From Candidatus Moanabacter tarae (GTDB lineage: Bacteria; Verrucomicrobiota; Verrucomicrobiia; Opitutales; UBA2987), in the NCBI GenBank assembly GCA_003226295.1, contig CP029803.1, forward strand, positions 2,423,001 to 2,487,000: DNA of 64,000 bases. Reading direction: 5' to 3'. Under the pieces are notes generated by a model. It was not told the DNA's origin, made no database searches, and worked only from the letters and a program-made list of their open reading frames with translations. Both the position numbers and the translations under genes were made by a program. Shown here piece by piece: positions 5,565 through 25,164 of this stretch (position 1 is its first letter; the number at the start of each line of letters is the position of its first letter).

Positions 5565-6404
5565 TTACCATGCTGTCCACCCTCCGTCAACGAGGAGATT
5601 TTGGCCCGTGATGTAGCTGCCAGCCTCGCTTACCAGCAGTAAGAGCGATCCTTTGAGCTCGTGGGGCAACCCCATACGCTTCATTGGGCTTTTTTTGCAG
5701 AGCCGCTTCACCATTTCAGATGGAACCTTCGGAAAATTGGGGAAGGGCCCTGGGCTGAGGCAATTTACTCTTACGTTGTCTTGTGCCCAGTAAACTGCAA
5801 GATGGCGGGTCATGTGAATGATTCCCCCTTTGAGGGTGTGATATCCAACCGGACTAGCGCTGCCTATACCCTGGTAGGCGTCAGGATAAGATCCAACTAC
5901 TCCGTACATCGAGCCGAGCATAACTATACTAGCAGGTATTTTTTGCTTCACTGCGTGATCGCGCAACAAGCGTGCGAGGAGAAAGAAACCAGTGGCATTG
6001 CCCAGCAGCTGGGTAAATTGTTCCGCGTCGACCTCGGTCCAATCCTTATTGACCGCTTCGTGTCCGTTGTTGACGAGCGCATCGATCGTTCCTACCTGCT
6101 CAACAGCAGAGTTAAAGCCTTTCCTGATCGAGGCTTCACTCATGTGGTCGATTGCGACTCCGCAGTGGTTTCTGTTCCCTGGCAGACCCTTAGCGACGTC
6201 AAGGGCACGAGCTGTTTCACGGCTCCCGACGATAACGGTGGCGCCAGCCTCCGCCAATCCCCGCGCCATGGAGGATCCAAGGTAGCCCGATGCGCCGGTT
6301 ATGAGAACCTTTTTGCCGGTGAGATTGAAGAGATCCTGGACGGATGGTTCGATGGACATGGCTAGATGAGAGATATTTTCCGTAGAATTCTTAGATACGG
6401 TCAA
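5565..6404 (-). CDS. short-chain dehydrogenase/reductase, coupled to PhyH gene
   Basis: A 279-residue SDR with TGASGYLG at 36-43, NNG at 112-114, Ser165 and the YxxxK pair Tyr188/Lys192, and the family's C-terminal LLVDGGWTAW. Overall it resembles the FabG/gluconate 5-dehydrogenase branch, but the substrate is unknown. The ATG overlaps the stop of the upstream PhyH gene in an ATGA, indicating translational coupling and a shared pathway: hydroxylation by the dioxygenase, then oxidation of the new alcohol. A second possible start is Met16 (MSIEPS). The central NNG and GSM replace the more usual NNAG and SSM. Confidence 0.9.
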   Translation of the reverse strand: MTVSKNSTENISHLAMSIEPSVQDLFNLTGKKVLITGASGYLGSSMARGLAEAGATVIVGSRETARALDVAKGLPGNRNHCGVAIDHMSEASIRKGFNSAVEQVGTIDALVNNGHEAVNKDWTEVDAEQFTQLLGNATGFFLLARLLRDHAVKQKIPASIVMLGSMYGVVGSYPDAYQGIGSASPVGYHTLKGGIIHMTRHLAVYWAQDNVRVNCLSPGPFPNFPKVPSEMVKRLCKKSPMKRMGLPHELKGSLLLLVSEAGSYITGQNLLVDGGWTAW

Positions 6405-7237
6405 ATTGTTGAACGCACTTTTTTTGCATCCTTGAATAGGATGTCACGTACTGCGGTGGTCGCTTTTTTATGCAAGGCAACTGCTTCTGGATCCAAGTCT
6501 TGAGCTGGACGTGGTGCGGGTTCGAAATAATTGAATTTGTTCTCACCGCGAACCAAGGCAGCTGTATCCCAATCTCCGATGATCTGTCTGGTGTTTGTAG
6601 GCATGTAATGGAGGGAAAGACCAATTCTTCGATTGGGAGAGCGATTGGGAAGCGAAGCATGAGCCAACCGCCCGTTGTGGAGAGATATCTCGCCTGCCCG
6701 GAGAGGCATGGATACTGCGAGAGACTCGTCAACCTCAACCGCAACTTCCTGCCCTCGGGTCAACATATTATTGTCAGCGTACTCGTCTTGATGGGGCATA
6801 AGGTCGCCCTTATGGCTACCGGGAAGTACCCTCATGCATCCGCTTTCCAGTGAGGCAGGGGAAAGCGCCAGCCATACGGTGACAAGCTTGTCGGTATCCA
6901 GGCCCCAGTAGTTGAGATCTTGATGCCAGGAAACGAATGCTTCGCTATGAGCCTCTTTGACCCAGAAGAGAGTGTTCCAGCAGAGGATATCCGGACCAAT
7001 CAGATCTTCAACCACGTCGAGAATTCTGGGATGACGCATAAGGTCATCAACCCAGACAAACAGCAAATGAGATTTGTTGCGCTGAGCCCCGCCGATCGGT
7101 TTGCCTTGTTCAGACTCAAATTTCTCAAGATTGGCCCGGTTTTCGGCCACCTCGTCCTTATTCAGAATCTCGACCGGGAAATAATATCCGTCGTTGAGGT
7201 ATTGGGCAATGGCATCTTCATTCAGTTCTTTAGGCAT
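6401..7237 (-). CDS. phytanoyl-CoA dioxygenase (PhyH) family protein
   Basis: A 278-residue Fe(II)/2-oxoglutarate dioxygenase of the PhyH family. The iron facial triad is readable as His105-x-Asp107 (SWHQDLN) and distal His193 in AHASLPN. Arg204, in PNRRIGLSLH, is placed to bind 2-oxoglutarate. MRVLPGSHKG is the conserved core strand. Bacterial members hydroxylate varied small molecules; the substrate is unknown. It overlaps the SDR gene downstream by four bases, so the two are probably one operon. It is the first of four PhyH domains in this window. Confidence 0.92.
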   Translation of the reverse strand: MPKELNEDAIAQYLNDGYYFPVEILNKDEVAENRANLEKFESEQGKPIGGAQRNKSHLLFVWVDDLMRHPRILDVVEDLIGPDILCWNTLFWVKEAHSEAFVSWHQDLNYWGLDTDKLVTVWLALSPASLESGCMRVLPGSHKGDLMPHQDEYADNNMLTRGQEVAVEVDESLAVSMPLRAGEISLHNGRLAHASLPNRSPNRRIGLSLHYMPTNTRQIIGDWDTAALVRGENKFNYFEPAPRPAQDLDPEAVALHKKATTAVRDILFKDAKKVRSTI

Positions 7238-7383
7238 AATTGTCCCGTTTTTCTCTGAGAATTGGTCAACCCGGGAATTCGGCTTCTCTTTCCCCTACTT
7301 TACGACTGTTTGATTTAGATTAGCAAGCATCTCTCCTTTGCGGGATGGGTAGTTTTGCGATGAACTAAGGTGAGTCATTTGTT

Positions 7384-8247
7384 TTACCATGATATATCCA
7401 TCATATCATGTGCCCAGTAGAGAGCCCCGTTATACACGCTTTTGACTTCCGAGATTCCTTGGGTAGTTTCTTCGGGCGGGTCGAGAGTGGGGGACTGATG
7501 ATTAATCACAAGCCGTTTCGCACCGGCTTCGGCGGCCATACGGCCAGCGCTCAGTGTGCCGGATTCAGAAATAACACTCGGAAAAGTTTGAATCTTTTCC
7601 TCTCGATGGACAGCTTCCATGACGAATAAATCAGCGGACCGGGCCAATTCTACAACCGATTCAGTGGGTGCAGTATCCCCGCTGAAGGCGACTATTCCCT
7701 CATCGGTTTCGAAACGGAAGCCATAACATGCGATGTAGGGTTGGGCGTGCTTAACTTCGCGAGCGTAACAAACCCAGCCTTCTCCTTCCGCGACTTTCCC
7801 TTCGATGTATTCTGTCACTTTCACTTGGGGTGGCGGTCTGTCTCCTTTTCCTCCCCGAGTATGGAAGGCATGGATGCTCATAGGATGATTGATGCGTGCC
7901 TCCACGTCGAACCAAAATACTCCACCATTGGCAGACCAGATTGTTTCGGTAATTTTCTTGATGGGGCTCGGACCGTAGACATTTAAATCGCGCTCCGTCC
8001 CTATCGATTGATCGAATCGAGTCATTAGAAAACAGAGGTAATCAGCGACGTGATCGGAATGCAGATGGGTGAAAAAGAGATTACTAACTGACGTACTTGG
8101 AATCCCCATTTTATACATTTTATAGGTTGAGGCAGGCCCACAGTCGATCATCAGACGTTGGCCGCAAATTTCCAAAATAAAACAGGTTCCCCAGCGGGAG
8201 GGAGTAGGGTTGGGCGTCCCCGCCCCTACAATTCTTAGTTTTGGCAT
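7384..8247 (-). CDS. MBL-fold metallohydrolase (RNase Z-like subgroup)
   Basis: A 287-residue metallo-beta-lactamase-fold hydrolase. The dinuclear zinc motif THLHSDHVADY includes His61, His63, Asp65 and His66. Further downstream are FSGDTAP and a NHQSP histidine near the C-terminus. The GTPNPTPSRWG start and sheet pattern resemble the RNase Z / arylsulfatase-like MBL branch, but the tRNA-processing exosite is not evident, so a small-molecule hydrolase is more likely. The frame is open 60 codons further upstream, but that extension has no family-like features, so the ATG at 8247 (MPKLRIVGAG) is chosen. No clear Shine-Dalgarno sequence is present. Confidence 0.85.
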   Translation of the reverse strand: MPKLRIVGAGTPNPTPSRWGTCFILEICGQRLMIDCGPASTYKMYKMGIPSTSVSNLFFTHLHSDHVADYLCFLMTRFDQSIGTERDLNVYGPSPIKKITETIWSANGGVFWFDVEARINHPMSIHAFHTRGGKGDRPPPQVKVTEYIEGKVAEGEGWVCYAREVKHAQPYIACYGFRFETDEGIVAFSGDTAPTESVVELARSADLFVMEAVHREEKIQTFPSVISESGTLSAGRMAAEAGAKRLVINHQSPTLDPPEETTQGISEVKSVYNGALYWAHDMMDISW

Positions 8248-8767
8248 GGTGATTTTTTTTCGATTAAAACAGAGATTTCTATATCCAAAAATGGATAGTT
8301 TTGGATAGTGGGGCAAGGCTCTGTTTACGCCGTTAATACTTATTCCCATGGCACTTCCAAAATGATCGACTGTGCCTACGCTTTGGAAGGACGGTTCTGG
8401 GCCTTGACAATTCTCCGGAGATAACATCAGGGATAAGTGCTATCGGAAAATTAGATTGCTGGGGTCTTTCGACATGGGCGAAGTTAAAATTGATGACATC
8501 AGCGGACTAACTAAGACGTGGGTCTCAAAGACTCAAATGAAGTGACAGATATCCAATCTAAATCGAATCTTTGGCTGATCCTAAAATTTGTTGAAGTTAA
8601 GGTTAGCTCCAGCCACTTGCTGCCTTTTCTGATCACATTCAACGAGTTAACTAAAGTCCGAACCAATCGGTGTTTGAAACTCACCAAGAAAGTTCCATGC
8701 TTCGATTTATGGTTTGGAGCGGACCAGGCAGCTCCAGTGTTGGAATAAACAGTGAAGTAGGAAGTGG
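8248..8767. other. divergent intergenic stretch
   Basis: This region lies between the leftward MBL gene and a rightward oxidoreductase gene. Short frames exist on both strands but none has protein-like composition with a credible start. It presumably holds divergent promoters; none was confidently located. Confidence 0.4.
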
Positions 8768-9769
8768 ATGAATTCAGAAAAGCCTCACAAAGTGTTGGTC
8801 ATAGGCTGTGGTAGTATAGGAGAGAGGCATCTTCGGTGTTTCCTGAGTACGGGACGTGCTGCCGTTACGGGCTGCGATGTGAATGAGGAACTCCTTGCTC
8901 AAATCAACAAAAATTATAATACCCCTGTTACGACCGATTGGGAATTAGCTTTACAGGATCCGACCACGACAGCAGCGGTTGTCGCCACGCCAGCAAATCT
9001 TCATGTCGAGATGGCTACGATGATTATGGAAGCCGGCAAGCATGTCTTGATCGAAAAACCCCTTTCGGTTGGAATGGAGGGAACGGAGGGGTTGATTGAG
9101 TTGCGCGACCGGCAAGGGTTAGTAGCAGCAGTGGGCTATGTTCACCGATCCATTCCAACTCTGCGTTCCATTCAGTCTTTTCTTGGATCGGGTGAATTCG
9201 GGGATATTTTACTGCTGACTATTACCTGTGGACAAGATTTCGCGCATTATCGGCCCGCCTACCGCGAAATTTATTTTGCCGACCACAAAAAGGGTGGCGG
9301 TGCTATTCAGGATGGGATAACCCATCTCATCAATTGGATTGAGTGGATTACGGGACCCATCGAAACGGTCTACTGTGATGCTGCTCACCAGCTTCTCGAG
9401 GGAGTAGAAGTGGAAGACACAGTTAATATACTGGCTCGCAGTGGGAAAACGCTTATCAACTGCTCGTATAACCTATTTCAGGCCCCTAACGAATATCGGG
9501 TTTGGATACATTGCGAACGGGGGAGCGTCATGGGTGATGTCCAAAATCAAAAGTGGGGGACGCTTGCGTCCGGAGAAGAGAATTGGAATTGGCGCGACGC
9601 GAATCATGGAGAGAGGGACATCCTTTTCGTCACTCAAGCAAATGATTTCCTTGACCAAATCGAGGGCAGATCCACGCAGTTATCCAGTCTTGAGGAGGGA
9701 ATCCAAACACTCCGCGTCAATCTTGCTTCCCTTGAATCATCGCGGAGCGGGACGCAAGTGCGAATTTAA
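8768..9769 (+). CDS. Gfo/Idh/MocA family NAD(P)-dependent oxidoreductase
   Basis: A 333-residue oxidoreductase. It has an N-terminal Rossmann domain with GCGSIG at 13-18 and the family hallmark EKP at 96-98, followed by the GFO/IDH/MocA C-terminal sheet domain. These enzymes oxidise or reduce sugars, inositols and related polyols using NAD(P). The substrate is not deducible. AGGAAG just upstream of the ATG serves as ribosome binding site. It stands alone; the bases immediately after the stop hold a sigma-factor relic. Two more members of the family occur at 50.4 and 52.6 kb. Confidence 0.92.
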   Translation: MNSEKPHKVLVIGCGSIGERHLRCFLSTGRAAVTGCDVNEELLAQINKNYNTPVTTDWELALQDPTTTAAVVATPANLHVEMATMIMEAGKHVLIEKPLSVGMEGTEGLIELRDRQGLVAAVGYVHRSIPTLRSIQSFLGSGEFGDILLLTITCGQDFAHYRPAYREIYFADHKKGGGAIQDGITHLINWIEWITGPIETVYCDAAHQLLEGVEVEDTVNILARSGKTLINCSYNLFQAPNEYRVWIHCERGSVMGDVQNQKWGTLASGEENWNWRDANHGERDILFVTQANDFLDQIEGRSTQLSSLEEGIQTLRVNLASLESSRSGTQVRI

Positions 9770-13821: not shown

Positions 13822-15267
13822 TTAGGCCTCCAAATAGATCGCGTAGACTTTAGGGTCTTCTGGACGAATCCCTTCATAGTTGATCCGGATCCGGATGGTT
13901 CCTTTTCCCCTTCCAATCGTCTTATGTTTTTGCCAGGCCACCTCCTGGCGGAATCCTGGTTCCAAGGCCAAACATTCCTCATGTGAGTAACCATTCAGTT
14001 GCTGGAATCGTTCATCAAGAATTTCAACTGTTACTCGACTGTATTCAGATAAGCCATCTACATTGAGAAACACTCGGGCTGGGTTCTCTTCGAGATCAAT
14101 TGGAGCTGAAATGATGTGTCTTGGTTGAGATGAGAGCAGCTTGAGGTCCGACGCTTGAAAATATCCCAGACGATCTCGTTGCCAGTTTGCAACTCTGACT
14201 CCGTTACTTAATTGTTCTGGCCAAGGTGCATACCAGAAAAGTGTTTCATTACCTACGTTCTCGAAACCTTGGCCTTGTGCTACCCCCGCGTGTTTAAAAT
14301 TGAAGGGGGTGGGTAAGTGTTCAAAATCGTCTTCTGCTGCTTCCACCATCCGAAAATCAGGTATCGGTTCTCGGTAATGGAGCGCGTCGTTACTGACGAC
14401 AAGCCCGAGATCCGTGGTTACGTGTCGTCGGTCGTCGTTGTCCGGCCCATGCCACTGGCCGTATAGTCCGATAACTACATTGCCGCGATTCCACAAGGCT
14501 GCTCCTAGGTGCACCTGTTCTCCTTGATGGTCACCGTAAACCATTGGCTTAGGTGGTATGTTCTCGCGTCGGAATCCCAGGCAGGAAGCTTCGATCCAGT
14601 GTTCAAAATCATAGGACGCGAACGTGACTAGTTGCCTCAAAGATCCAAAGTGCCGGCCGCCATGTCCACTTAAGTAATAGCAATTATTAAATTTAGTCCC
14701 TCCGGTCATCTCGCATGAAATCGGGTCCGAGCGGGTGGTGGGTTCGTGCCACCGTAGACCGTCTGGACTGAACACGACAGCAAACTCTGGTGTGTATTTG
14801 TTTGTTTCGATGACTGCTTTGAATCTGCGTTCAGGATCAGGGTCCTCTGGTTCATAGAATATGACACAGGCCGAAATGTGATGTTTTCCTCCTAACATAT
14901 CCACCAGATTGTTGTGCTTCGACCCCTTGTATTCGACCAATTGGAGATCAGGTTTTTCCCATTTGTATCCATCTAAGCTTTTCGCGAAGCAGACTCGTTG
15001 ATGCCATTGATCTCCTTCTCCTTGTCCAAGGTACCACATCCATAATTCATTACCGACACGATGGACCGAGCCGTAGTAGATAACACCGTTACTGTCTGGT
15101 GACCCTGGAGGACCGGGATGCACTACTATTCGGGTTCGATCTACACCGGCCCTATAGCGAACAAGGTGCAATCGGACGCCATGTTGGAACGGTATACTAT
15201 GGTCGTCGAAAGGAAACAGGACAACTTGGTTACTGCTGACTGGCTCTGGATTATTTCTTATAATCAT
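13822..15267 (-). CDS. predicted five-bladed beta-propeller glycoside hydrolase-like protein
   Basis: A 481-residue protein without signal peptide. Repeated blade-like segments (LWMWYLGQG, VCFAKSLDGYKWEKP, VVFSPDGLRWHEP, LVVSNDALHYREP) are typical of the GH32/GH43/GH68-type propeller fold, in which the S-DG--W motif recurs. A C-terminal beta-sandwich-like part follows from about residue 390. No canonical catalytic triad could be assigned by eye, so hydrolase activity is inference. Similar proteins are common in Verrucomicrobiota and Planctomycetes. The gene is 47 bases downstream of the beta-lactamase-like gene in the same direction. Confidence 0.7.
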   Translation of the reverse strand: MIIRNNPEPVSSNQVVLFPFDDHSIPFQHGVRLHLVRYRAGVDRTRIVVHPGPPGSPDSNGVIYYGSVHRVGNELWMWYLGQGEGDQWHQRVCFAKSLDGYKWEKPDLQLVEYKGSKHNNLVDMLGGKHHISACVIFYEPEDPDPERRFKAVIETNKYTPEFAVVFSPDGLRWHEPTTRSDPISCEMTGGTKFNNCYYLSGHGGRHFGSLRQLVTFASYDFEHWIEASCLGFRRENIPPKPMVYGDHQGEQVHLGAALWNRGNVVIGLYGQWHGPDNDDRRHVTTDLGLVVSNDALHYREPIPDFRMVEAAEDDFEHLPTPFNFKHAGVAQGQGFENVGNETLFWYAPWPEQLSNGVRVANWQRDRLGYFQASDLKLLSSQPRHIISAPIDLEENPARVFLNVDGLSEYSRVTVEILDERFQQLNGYSHEECLALEPGFRQEVAWQKHKTIGRGKGTIRIRINYEGIRPEDPKVYAIYLEA

Positions 15268-17708: not shown

Positions 17709-19661
17709 TTAGACGGGCGAATCGAATTGGGCGATCCTTTCCCTAATGGAACTGCTGCTGCGAACAAGAGCCTCCCAAGCTTGCACGGGTGATTGGTCAA
17801 GAATCGACGGAAGATCAGCTTGTAACTCGTCGATTAATGGCGGCATTTCTTTACCTTTTCGCCGAAGGTTGGCTATGCGGTTTAGCGCGTCCATTGCAAA
17901 TCCGACACAAATCACGTTCCTGTCCTCACGAATCACTCCTTTTAATGATTCTATGGTTGTCTTTAACGCAGGCCCGACAACCTCGGCTCCGTGGGAGCAA
18001 AGGATGACGATTGACCAGAGCGCGTTCTCCCGTACTGCCGAGCGGACCGGATCGAAACGATCTAACCCAAAATCAACGCCAGATCCTTCGCAGATGTCGC
18101 TATCGTCGGTGGGGCGCACTAAGTTAATTGACCGTTCCTGAGTTTGACTGGCGCACGGTCGATTCTCTTCATGAGATAAACTCTCTACTAGTGCATCCAG
18201 GCAAGCGGGTACGAGTGATTGACCAATCCCGGTGGCGATTGCGCGGCGACCCAAGCACCCGAGAGATCCCGCAGAGACGGACCTGACATAAACTGACGGA
18301 TCATTCTCCAAACGTCCTATAACAGCCTGTAGGACTTCATCGTTTAGAGGAGCGGTGTCGCCCAGTCCATAGATGCTGGCCTTTCTTACCCATTTGACAG
18401 GAGAAGTGGCTCCCTCAAGAAACGTTCTGGTCGCTTCTGGTCCAACAGCAATAAGGCCGCAGGTAGCAGCGCGCCTTACGCTCTCTCGGTCGTCGTACAG
18501 CGCTTGGCCGAGAAGCCGAATCGACAGAGAGATATTGCCCATTGAGGCGAGCCTGTAGGCAGCTCCAATTCTGGCCGGTTCTTTTTCATCGGTTTTCGCG
18601 TACAACTGGGCGAACAGGTATTCTGCCTCTTTCTGGCGGGCTAGGGATGGCGTTTCCAAAGTTTTGGGCTTAGATGGTGGCGATTGACCCGTTTTTATCC
18701 AGTAATAGTGATAGCGCCATACCGACGTAACATCCTCGTCGATGTGGGATAGGTCGATCTTAGTCAGCGGGTCCACAGAGGGTTCAAACCAAGATGCTTC
18801 CGTTAGGGTCTCATTGCTACAGTGCAAAGGGTCGGTAGTCCGGTAGAGCCAGAATCGCCACATAAAGCGAGGGTTGTCTTCCCAAGTTTTCCAGTTATCG
18901 CGGCGATGATTCCCTCTGTGAAAGAGATTGTGGGAATATAGGACGATGCTTCCAGCCCGAAGAGGGGCTGCCTCGAATGATTGCACAAGGGGCCAACCGG
19001 TTTTAGTAACGGCTTCCCTCATTCGAATGTCGTGAGGAGTGCGACGATTAACAATGTCGTCAAATTCATATTTACAATTCGGGCCACTGGCTGGTTCGTT
19101 CTCCATACCGCTGAGGTGGTAGTTGAAGTCGAGGTGGTCCGCTCCGGCGAAATTGTCTTGATTTTCTTCGTGGTTGAACGTCCAGTAGTGCGAGTATGGG
19201 ATTGTTGCTGTGGGCCCCATATCCTCTCGAACCATCTGTGGATAATAGAGCATCTCAATCTGTATTGCCTGGTAGTGGCGCTGTTTTCTTGCGTTCAAAG
19301 GGCCGGTGTCATCCTTGTGCCAATGTTGATCCCTCGGGCCGCTGGCAAAATGTGCATTGTGGGTGAAGGGAACGACGGCCCAGTTATCGCCTACTAGTCG
19401 ATTACACGCAGTGACAAGGCCGGGCGCGTTGAGTACTTCTAGCACCTCTGGAATGGTCGCAGGGGAAATTGGCTTATCGGCCAGGTAAGCTTTTTTCTCC
19501 TTTTTATAAATCTGGTCGTGGATTTCCAAAGGAATACCAAGACTCTCAGGAGTCAAAATAACAATCCCTCTGCTAACAAACTCCTGATCCAGCCTATCCG
19601 AATCGGGTTCCGAAAAGGCTATTTCATATTCTTTGCTCAATCTCTCATCCCCGCAAATCAA
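17709..19661 (-). CDS. phytanoyl-CoA dioxygenase domain fused to HEAT repeats
   Basis: A 650-residue two-part protein. Residues about 20-290 form a PhyH dioxygenase with the iron ligands His115-x-Asp117 (HWHKDD) and His248 (NLFHRG), and Arg269 as likely 2-oxoglutarate contact. Residues about 340-640 form alpha-helical HEAT-type repeats (AAYRLASMGN, RRAATCGLIAVGP, RKASIYGLGD, VRSVSAGSLGCLG, RENALWSIVILC). The start is a TTG; a second TTG at 19640 follows GGGG and may be the real one. HEAT repeats usually bind protein partners, so the dioxygenase may be tethered or may modify a protein; this is inference. Confidence 0.85.
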   Translation of the reverse strand: MICGDERLSKEYEIAFSEPDSDRLDQEFVSRGIVILTPESLGIPLEIHDQIYKKEKKAYLADKPISPATIPEVLEVLNAPGLVTACNRLVGDNWAVVPFTHNAHFASGPRDQHWHKDDTGPLNARKQRHYQAIQIEMLYYPQMVREDMGPTATIPYSHYWTFNHEENQDNFAGADHLDFNYHLSGMENEPASGPNCKYEFDDIVNRRTPHDIRMREAVTKTGWPLVQSFEAAPLRAGSIVLYSHNLFHRGNHRRDNWKTWEDNPRFMWRFWLYRTTDPLHCSNETLTEASWFEPSVDPLTKIDLSHIDEDVTSVWRYHYYWIKTGQSPPSKPKTLETPSLARQKEAEYLFAQLYAKTDEKEPARIGAAYRLASMGNISLSIRLLGQALYDDRESVRRAATCGLIAVGPEATRTFLEGATSPVKWVRKASIYGLGDTAPLNDEVLQAVIGRLENDPSVYVRSVSAGSLGCLGRRAIATGIGQSLVPACLDALVESLSHEENRPCASQTQERSINLVRPTDDSDICEGSGVDFGLDRFDPVRSAVRENALWSIVILCSHGAEVVGPALKTTIESLKGVIREDRNVICVGFAMDALNRIANLRRKGKEMPPLIDELQADLPSILDQSPVQAWEALVRSSSSIRERIAQFDSPV

Positions 19662-20859: not shown

Positions 20860-21606
20860 TTATTCATTGAGTTGGGACCCTTCCCAGAAGACACTAATTC
20901 CTAACTCTCGGTATTCGTCACGATTTTCGGCGGTAGTGGGTATGGCCCAACAGAGAGGAACGCCAAGGTCTTTCACCTGATCTGCGACATTTAAGACACA
21001 TTCCTTAACTGTTTTTAGCGAGTAACCAGGATGGCGTTCCAGGTTGAACATTAAATCGTTTGGGCCAAAGGCGAGATAATCAATTCCTTCCTTCATGGCG
21101 AACTTGCGTGCCCGGGTGACCCCTTCGACGGATTCGAGTTGCACGCAAAGCACACCGAAGTTGTTCCACCAATTGGCATATTCTAGCCGATATTGGTCAG
21201 AGCTGGTGTCAAAGTGTTTTGCACCGGCTCGGGATGCACCACCCCAACTCCGTCGGCCCAGAGTGCCGTAGTAAAAATACTCGATAGCCTCATCAACAGA
21301 AGCTTCTTCCATCACCTCAGGGACCATTACAGAGGATAGACCGAAATCACAGTAGCGGCCTGCCATATAAGTTAATCGAGTGTGAGGGATCCGGATCTGA
21401 GTGGGTACACCTAGGTCCTCGGTCACAGAGCAAAACTGTTCAAGCCTTTCCTCAGAAAAAGTAGAATGTTGGCCATCGATGAAAATCGCGTCGTAGGATC
21501 CTAGTGCAAGAGAATCCTCAAGTTCGGTGCGCCCTGTTGTGATGGAAGTTATGAGCAAGAGAACCTCTTCTCCGCTCTTAAGACGTTGTTTGAATGTTTC
21601 ACTCAT
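20860..21606 (-). CDS. HpcH/HpaI-type class II aldolase/citrate lyase family protein
   Basis: A 248-residue TIM-barrel aldolase that would cleave or form C-C bonds using a pyruvate-type donor and a divalent metal. Expected active-site positions are present: His47 in IDGQHST, Arg72 in IRIP, metal ligands Glu158 in QLESVEG and Asp184 in GPNDL. The substrate may be a 2-keto-3-deoxy acid. The final residues (FWEGSQLNE) match the family's end. It is the last gene of a leftward series with a PhyH enzyme and an amidohydrolase, so an aldol cleavage step in a degradation pathway is likely. Confidence 0.88.
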   Translation of the reverse strand: MSETFKQRLKSGEEVLLLITSITTGRTELEDSLALGSYDAIFIDGQHSTFSEERLEQFCSVTEDLGVPTQIRIPHTRLTYMAGRYCDFGLSSVMVPEVMEEASVDEAIEYFYYGTLGRRSWGGASRAGAKHFDTSSDQYRLEYANWWNNFGVLCVQLESVEGVTRARKFAMKEGIDYLAFGPNDLMFNLERHPGYSLKTVKECVLNVADQVKDLGVPLCWAIPTTAENRDEYRELGISVFWEGSQLNE

Positions 21607-23709: not shown

Positions 23710-25164
23710 TTATTTTGGAAATGAAGGTAGTTCAAGGCGAGTGAGGTGCTGGATGATTCGGATGACCTGGCCGGCGTAACCGAACTCATTATCGTACCAG
23801 ACGTAGAGCACACATTGTTTACCCTGCACGATTGTAGTTTCCGAATCGATGATTGAGGTCTTGAGGTATCCGATGAAATCGCTCGATACCACTTCCTTTG
23901 AGGTAGTGTAGTCGATCTGACTTTGGAGTGGTGAGTCCAGGGAGATAGCACGTAAGTATTCGTTGACCTCTTCAACCGTTGTTGTCGCGACGAGGTTCAG
24001 TTTTAGAATGGCCAAAGAGACATTTGGAGTGGGGACTCGAATGGCATTGGCTGTGAGCTTTCCATCTAGCGCAGGAAGGGCTTTAGTGACGGCGCTCGCA
24101 GCGCCGGTTTCAGTGATGACCATATTGAGGGGTGCAGCGCGTCCGCGTCTATCTTTGCGATGAAAGTTATCGATTAAGTGCTGGTCATTAGTGTAGGAAT
24201 GGCAGGTGTCAATGTGGCCCTGCTTGATCTTAAAGCGGTCATCCATGGCTTTAAGAACAGGAACAATGGCATTGGTTGTGCAACTGGCGGCAGAAATGAT
24301 GCGGTCATCTTCTTGAATGTCTTGATTGTTCACTCCATAAATAATATCGGGAATATCACCTTTCCCTGGTGCGGTTAGGATAACGTAGCCCGCACCATTG
24401 GACATGAGGTGCTTTTCAAGTCCTGTGCGATCCCGCCAGACACCTGTGTTGTCCACGATTATGGCATCTTCGATATCGTACTGATCATAATCAACCTGTT
24501 CGGGCGAATCGGCATTGATGATACGCACAAGATTGCCATTTATGATCAGAGCATTCATTTCTTCATCGATCTGAATTGTTCCTTTGAAGGGACCGTGAAT
24601 AGAGTCACGTCGTAGTAAACTAGCTCGTTTCGTAAGCTCCTCAGGGCCTCGGCCTTTCACGACAATAGCTCGCAACCTCCACTTATCTCCACCGCCACTG
24701 CGATCGATGAGGATACGGGCCACCATTCGGCCTATCCTGCCGAAACCGTAAAGGACGATGTCTTTGGGTTTGTTCTGCATGACGTTAGATGTTTCTTTAC
24801 AAGCATCCAGGCTAGCTCTGATGAATGTGGAAACGTCAAGCCCTCCATTTTCATTTTGAAAAATCTTGGCCAACTTCCCAATATCGATTCTCGAGGCAGG
24901 CAGGTCTATTTTCGCGAGTGTCTCTACGATCTTAGATCCCAGTTTAAGAGGTAACTCCTCGCCCAGGATTCTTCGGGCAAAACGGTGAGCTTTAATGATG
25001 TCGATGGGGGAGCTGCGAATTAGAGAGCGTCCGAATATTGTAATGACGAGTCCTTTCTCCCGATAAAGGCTACCGATTACAGGAACCATCCTTTCGGCAA
25101 TAGCTTCTCTCTCGATCCAATCATCAAAATAGGTCTGGATTTTTTTATCTTCTGCCATGGTCAA
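23710..25164 (-). CDS. gap: glyceraldehyde-3-phosphate dehydrogenase, long form
   Basis: A 484-residue GAPDH. Residues 1-132 are an extra helical domain that ordinary 330-residue GAPDH lacks. The Rossmann motif GFGRIGR is at 140-146, the nucleophile Cys295 in SAASCTTN, and the base His322 in CHSYTND; the RGRAAPLNM and GKLTANAIRVPTP segments are clear. The same long form is known in some Pseudomonas and Vibrio species, where its special role is not settled. It interconverts G3P and 1,3-bisphosphoglycerate. It is unclear whether it is the cell's main GAPDH. The real start may be Met3. Confidence 0.93.
   Translation of the reverse strand: MTMAEDKKIQTYFDDWIEREAIAERMVPVIGSLYREKGLVITIFGRSLIRSSPIDIIKAHRFARRILGEELPLKLGSKIVETLAKIDLPASRIDIGKLAKIFQNENGGLDVSTFIRASLDACKETSNVMQNKPKDIVLYGFGRIGRMVARILIDRSGGGDKWRLRAIVVKGRGPEELTKRASLLRRDSIHGPFKGTIQIDEEMNALIINGNLVRIINADSPEQVDYDQYDIEDAIIVDNTGVWRDRTGLEKHLMSNGAGYVILTAPGKGDIPDIIYGVNNQDIQEDDRIISAASCTTNAIVPVLKAMDDRFKIKQGHIDTCHSYTNDQHLIDNFHRKDRRGRAAPLNMVITETGAASAVTKALPALDGKLTANAIRVPTPNVSLAILKLNLVATTTVEEVNEYLRAISLDSPLQSQIDYTTSKEVVSSDFIGYLKTSIIDSETTIVQGKQCVLYVWYDNEFGYAGQVIRIIQHLTRLELPSFPK

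Follow-up and report, generated by a model that had tools for sequence, protein, structure and literature searches.

A PhyH-type oxygenase domain fused to a HEAT-repeat solenoid is a clade-wide architecture in uncultured bacteria

Gene and features at the locus

The window analysed here is a stretch of 64,000 nucleotides from the genome of Candidatus Moanabacter tarae (contig CP029803.1, positions 2,423,001 to 2,487,000). On its minus strand, nt 17709-19661 form a single frame of 650 codons with zero internal stops, in which a PhyH domain is followed by HEAT repeats. The features considered are as follows.

17709..19661, minus strand: PhyH-HEAT fusion gene, with a product of 650 aa (start TTG 19661) or 643 aa (start TTG 19640)
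18684..19616, minus strand: PhyH-type Fe(II)/2OG oxygenase domain and linker helix, residues 16-326 (Pfam PhyH, separate model)
19311..19319, minus strand: H115-K116-D117, iron-binding HxD (45/45 relatives)
18918..18920, minus strand: H248, distal iron-binding histidine (45/45 relatives)
18867..18869, minus strand: R265, probable 2-oxoglutarate arginine (45/45 relatives)
17724..18665, minus strand: HEAT-repeat alpha-solenoid, residues 333-646, start about 332 (Pfam, profile match, AlphaFold2 model, structure alignment)
18021..18164, minus strand: residues 500-547, an inserted loop with N-R, Q-x-R and RPxD-x-x-D-x-CEG, then the HEAT helix VRSxVREN (column identity)
20860-21606, minus strand: HpcH/HpaI-type aldolase of a weakly scoring subfamily

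The TTG listed as the start (19661) was without an evident ribosome-binding site, and inspection of the sequence located a GGGGA upstream of the in-frame TTG at 19640, with a spacing of 7 bases; the protein may start at the latter codon, giving 643 aa. NCBIfam contained no family for this protein, and zero matches to it were found in the plasmid collection and among the phage protein families.

Oxygenase barrel

The Pfam-A family PhyH (PF05721) matched residues 99-250 with 24.0 bits, a narrow margin over the cut-off of 22. His115, Asp117, His248 and Arg265 were present in all 45 aligned PhyH-HEAT proteins (the window protein, 8 orthologues, and 36 paralogues), bearing out the claim in the first-pass annotation of a PhyH domain with all iron ligands. 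The 2OG arginine lies 11 residues beyond the distal histidine in most relatives, and the position of R265, 17 residues past H248, is due to a six-residue insertion; the gap comprised 16 intervening residues in all nine rows of the orthologous group versus 10-15 in the paralogues. By this alignment, R265 is the probable 2-oxoglutarate-binding arginine. A long insert was also observed in the barrel, with 77 residues between positions 159 and 237 of the window protein and 17-24 in most paralogues.

The catalytic part modelled alone had a pLDDT of 80.5, and its best PDB match was FtmOx1 (4y5s; Z 13.7, rmsd 4.1 over 197 residues), followed by the PhyH-type enzymes OkaE, EvdO1, KanJ, HygX and similar ones. 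The catalytic half, as modelled, is thus a PhyH-type double-stranded beta-helix barrel. FtmOx1, OkaE, KanJ, EvdO1, and HygX are small-molecule enzymes.

HEAT half and its conserved segment

Within the C-terminal half, Pfam-A HEAT_2 matched residues 382-467 (38.9 bits, cut-off 27.7) and the HEAT family scored 29.6 bits (cut-off 23.5), so that the Pfam cut-off was passed by only about 85 residues. The profile of 59 orthologues (see below) matched alphaRep chains, which are designed HEAT proteins, in the PDB with E-values down to 4e-32, the best stretches falling within residues 335-473. In the full-length AlphaFold2 model built from the same orthologues (pLDDT 84.2; pTM 0.91 for two domains), residues 332-646 were helical, and this half aligned with HEAT/ARM solenoids such as alphaRep bGFP-A 4xl5 (Z 16.6, rmsd 4.3 over 222) and Kap121 3w3t (Z 16.9, rmsd 5.0 over 279). 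A match to the CpcF-like chain 5n3u_B of the bilin-binding phycobilin lyase (CpcE/CpcF) HEAT family (Z 14.8, rmsd 2.6 over 168) was tied with many unrelated HEAT chains. Judged by the model and the profile matches, the C-terminal half is a genuine HEAT-repeat solenoid. In the domain search and AlphaFold2 model proposed earlier as a check, a barrel of PhyH type was followed by an alpha-solenoid; the original estimate of about 300 residues of HEAT-like repeats was a fair one, and the possibility raised with it, that the C-terminal part does not fold as HEAT, was not borne out.

Conservation was unevenly distributed over the protein. Among 38 orthologues less than 80% identical to each other, the segment 500-547 had a mean column identity of 0.82, comparable to 0.87, 0.79, and 0.84 for the catalytic stretches 91-160, 161-225, and 226-275, whereas the flanking HEAT residues 340-499 and 548-600 had 0.66 and 0.64. 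The final 50 residues were weakly conserved (0.41). A sliding scan placed the maximum of conservation within the HEAT half in this segment. Positions conserved in at least 95% of the 58 other orthologues numbered 23 of 48 in residues 500-547, 39 of 167 in 333-499, and 10 of 103 in 548-650; over the whole protein, the window sequence retained 172 of 179 such positions.

The VRSxVREN end of the Arg- and acid-rich segment is an ordinary HEAT helix, and the part preceding it is inserted: positions 497 and 540 are separated by 42 residues in the window protein, by a single residue in most paralogues, and by 11-13 in the sister group (L102, L103, L104, L107, L109, and the L077 paralogue). From its conservation, we read the inserted loop as a likely functional loop, and the segment looks to be what is new in the fusion. 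Such a loop could equally be a partner-binding site. In the otherwise confident AlphaFold2 model, its confidence was low (about 63) and resembled that of the active-site loops at about 101-130 and 151-180, as would be expected for loops that become ordered upon ligand binding. Coupling between the PhyH and HEAT inserts, which would have hinted at contact between the domains, was not observed over the 36 paralogues (Spearman 0.11, P 0.53), and L112 and L142 had a long PhyH insert without a HEAT insert.

Orthologues and distribution

When 84,980 species were scanned, each represented by one genome, 86 stretches with matches were obtained; the best 80, representing 78 loci, were kept. In 62 of the 78 loci among these best 80 of 86 stretches, the gene is one open frame of 590 aa or more, free of interruptions and ambiguous residues, and its product shares 41-70% BLASTP identity with the window protein. 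Of the remaining 16 loci, eight reach a contig end (L047, L061, L064, L075, L084, L088, L089, and L094), four have a long frame containing an ambiguous residue (L049, L069, L072, and L074), the frame of L082 has 581 aa, and three loci (L036, L090, and L092) are broken or partial. The locus at a contig end titled Dehalococcoidia (L088) shared 70% identity over residues 13-294.

The 59-orthologue set comprised the window protein and 58 of the 62 long orthologues, since L043, L053, L073, and L083 were omitted as over-extended or partly out of frame. In the tree of this set, the Pseudomonadota rows were largely separate, while Latescibacterota and Gemmatimonadota labels were intermixed, and the window protein grouped with L021 and L017 with moderate support (87 and 91). 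The distribution of the architecture, which the first-pass annotation had suggested be surveyed, extends over bins titled Latescibacterota, Gemmatimonadota or Gemmatimonadetes, Poribacteria, and Pseudomonadota as well as single bins of other phyla, labels that may err in individual bins. Within the class of the window, the only one of 384 sampled genomes with an orthologue at E 1e-10 was the window's own; in a phylum sample (n = 387) that overlaps with the class sample, a full-length match was found only in this genome, and five others matched over short stretches with at most about 28 bits. Such a patchy distribution suggests transfer of the gene.

These data also bear on whether a frameshift or an assembly error has joined two genes, a concern voiced in the first-pass annotation. 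A few relatives are indeed broken (L036 is split over three frames and L092 over two) and otherwise nothing was found in favour of an artefact. Against it stand the single frames of at least 590 aa in 62 of 78 loci (best 80 of 86 stretches) from many independent assemblies and the architecture common to the 36 paralogues described below, by which this explanation was ruled out for practical purposes; we regard it as having almost no chance of being correct.

PhyH-HEAT clade and paralogues

The orthologue profile was run against six genomes reached via the loci; an orthologue was recovered in all six, together with many weaker matches, for instance 39 in a Poribacteria-labelled genome, several per protein. 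Of the 23 proteins in a first set, 21 had a HEAT_2 match and 20 a PhyH match in Pfam at E 0.01; six belonged to the orthologous group, including L091, and 17 were others, of which L117 and L120 were without HEAT. In total, 36 distinct PhyH-HEAT paralogues were obtained from seven genomes (the window's and these six) and locus L077, with L133 left out for want of a PhyH match. The window's genome contained two further fusions, of 433 and 466 aa, the latter below the PhyH cut-off. At L077, the orthologue (6013-7806, plus strand) and a paralogue (7812-9395, minus strand) are convergent neighbours separated by a few bases.

A PhyH-domain tree of 45 fusion rows and 21 stand-alone rows, the latter picked non-randomly from the matches at hand, required just 2 state changes (gain or loss) of HEAT; SH-aLRT values were mostly 80-99, several branches were long, and the search was a quick one. 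Stand-alone PhyH proteins L117 (1117-1914, minus strand, in the window's genome, G000), L147, and L150 were nested within the PhyH-HEAT clade and have, to judge from their placement, apparently lost the HEAT half. The fusion is thus a clade-wide, old, and repeatedly duplicated architecture in uncultured bacteria, not a rare one: 36 further PhyH-HEAT proteins carry it.

G000 (2.63 Mb, one contig) had 84 PhyH matches, an extreme expansion; since PhyH genes are so abundant in it, it is the HEAT half that distinguishes the window gene. Another, different PhyH fusion in this genome is the protein of L120 (1009-2631, plus strand), 541 aa with PhyH at residues 95-195, whose C-terminal part, about 340 residues long, had no Pfam match at E 1.

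Genomic neighbourhood and aldolases

The genes neighbouring the fusion gene in the window encode a PIG-L deacetylase, a beta-lactamase-like hydrolase, a 3-keto-disaccharide hydrolase-like protein, the aldolase, and a stand-alone PhyH protein, which amounts to a small-molecule catabolic setting. No neighbour conserved family-wide was found in the flanks of the orthologue loci (best 80 of 86 stretches), so the comparison of neighbours in other genomes, recommended earlier, yielded no constant partner. The leading Pfam families among immediate neighbours were HpcH_HpaI (9), sulfatase (7), and ABC transporter (6) in 84 of 89 selected neighbours, counts that are rough because flank genes were called greedily by length, some in the wrong frame in GC-rich loci.

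HpcH/HpaI-type aldolases occurred in 16 of 79 sources, the window included, and in 14 of the 59 tree rows, where 6 changes were needed on the tree. A weakly scoring subfamily was located near or adjoining the PhyH-HEAT gene in the window and at L019, L020, L025, L026, L060, and L090, the linkage at the six loci corresponding to one Latescibacterota-type clade. The window aldolase was 50% identical to the divergently adjacent aldolase of L020, and the adjacent copy in the genome of L060 was that genome's best match to it; the aldolase at Pseudomonadales loci (L065 compared) belonged to another subfamily (25% identity). The aldolase was set aside as a specific partner because proximity to PhyH genes is a general feature of aldolases in the window's genome: of 15, nine lie within 6 kb of one, against an expected 3.8, and four lie within 2 kb, against an expected 1.9. 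The window aldolase was nearer to a stand-alone PhyH gene, with 400 bases between the family matches, than to the PhyH-HEAT gene.

Possible role of the HEAT half

The reading that we tentatively favour is a single-chain PhyH-type oxygenase for a small-molecule substrate, its HEAT half being an integral part that serves as a cap or in substrate recognition. The N-terminal barrel would hold iron (H115, D117, and H248) and 2-oxoglutarate (R265), and O2 would be converted to a ferryl species by which the substrate is hydroxylated or oxidatively demethylated, as expected from the family. The solenoid would pack on the barrel and place the segment 500-547 at the substrate side as a putative cap or recognition loop. 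The substrate would most likely be a small metabolite from the surroundings, perhaps carbohydrate- or natural-product-like, and the enzyme may be part of the catabolic repertoire of PhyH-rich bacteria. This integral role is favoured because of the catalytic residues in 45/45 proteins, the conservation of 500-547, the pTM of 0.91, the small-molecule folds, and the varied metabolic neighbours. Survival of the HEAT-less group (L117, L147, and L150) in the clade, which indicates that the barrel can do without the solenoid, and the uncoupled lengths of the PhyH and HEAT inserts count against it. A further-reaching proposal, which we consider improbable, is that the solenoid supplies essential substrate-site residues (RPxD-x-x-D-x-CEG, possibly a second metal or anionic-substrate site) to the PhyH barrel, and that this two-part architecture arose about once and was amplified to numerous paralogues in each genome of Latescibacterota, Poribacteria, and marine Pseudomonadales, an evolvable repeat scaffold varying the choice of substrate.

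The solenoid could instead be a protein-binding arm that recruits a protein substrate for side-chain hydroxylation or a fixed partner enzyme, which we hold to be rather unlikely though the nearest competitor. The matched HEAT solenoids are mostly protein binders (importins, PP2A scaffold, and alphaReps), the conserved segment rich in Arg and acidic residues could serve as the binding site, and one Latescibacterota-type clade repeatedly has an aldolase gene in divergent orientation next to the fusion gene, with a 50%-identical relative near the window gene. However, zero neighbours were conserved family-wide, aldolases accompany PhyH genes generally in the window's genome (9/15 within 6 kb against 3.8 expected), and the nearest catalytic folds act on small molecules; moreover, a gene present in 1 of 384 class genomes makes a universal core protein unlikely as a required substrate. 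The first-pass annotation had taken the fusion to suggest a protein partner or protein substrate: the fusion and the HEAT fold stood, but given the small-molecule folds, the lack of conserved neighbours, and the single peak segment, specific support for such a partner or substrate did not emerge. Another explanation, to which we assign a small probability, is that the HEAT half is a mere structural or oligomerisation module of an otherwise ordinary PhyH enzyme; the nested HEAT-less clade and the poor conservation of the last 50 residues (0.41) agree with it, but residues 500-547 are conserved like the catalytic stretches, beyond what scaffolding needs.

Relation to known systems

Deoxyhypusine hydroxylase is a HEAT-repeat hydroxylase whose repeats themselves bear a di-iron site with His-Glu motifs, and it resembles the PhyH-HEAT protein in having HEAT repeats in a hydroxylase. 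A HEAT half of this kind was rejected here, as residues 333-650 contained no invariant His, only H557 reaching 90%, and no conserved His-Glu pattern. Members of the PhyH superfamily (PF05721; FtmOx1, OkaE, TlxI/J, KanJ, HygX, and EvdO1) share the barrel fold, the HxD...H site, and the 2OG arginine, but the solved PhyH chains have about 240-315 residues, to which the PhyH-HEAT protein adds a HEAT half of about 315 residues and the long barrel insert.

Very many PhyH genes per genome, with most functions left open, have been described in Poribacteria (Kamke et al. 2014, PMC3909097), an expansion to which the 84 PhyH matches in the window's genome may be likened; the term HEAT is absent from the main text of that paper. 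PHYHD1/FJS have been described as PhyH-type 2'-O-methyl nucleoside demethylases, and Gemmatimonadota and Poribacteria sequences are named there among those highly similar to FJS (PMC12709175); by this description, FJS, at 32 kDa, is too small for such a HEAT half. Both halves of the PhyH-HEAT protein are known families, and no description of the fused clade or of its conserved HEAT segment was found in the literature searched, a coverage with subscription journals mostly outside it.

Sponge-associated and marine uncultured bacteria show a striking expansion of PhyH genes, most of them without known function. The PhyH-HEAT orthologous group, 41-70% identical across several phylum labels and with a sharply conserved HEAT segment, is a tractable handle on them. 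If the HEAT half does shape the active site, it would represent a new route to a substrate pocket for PhyH-type enzymes.

Two further genes in the window, both on the minus strand, had unassigned or extended parts. The product of nt 13822-15267 (481 aa) had no Pfam match above the cut-off and a faint match to the GH32 N-terminal domain (E 0.14), and that of nt 23710-25164 (484 aa) was GAPDH-like, its NAD domain being preceded by about 130 extra residues at the N-terminus.
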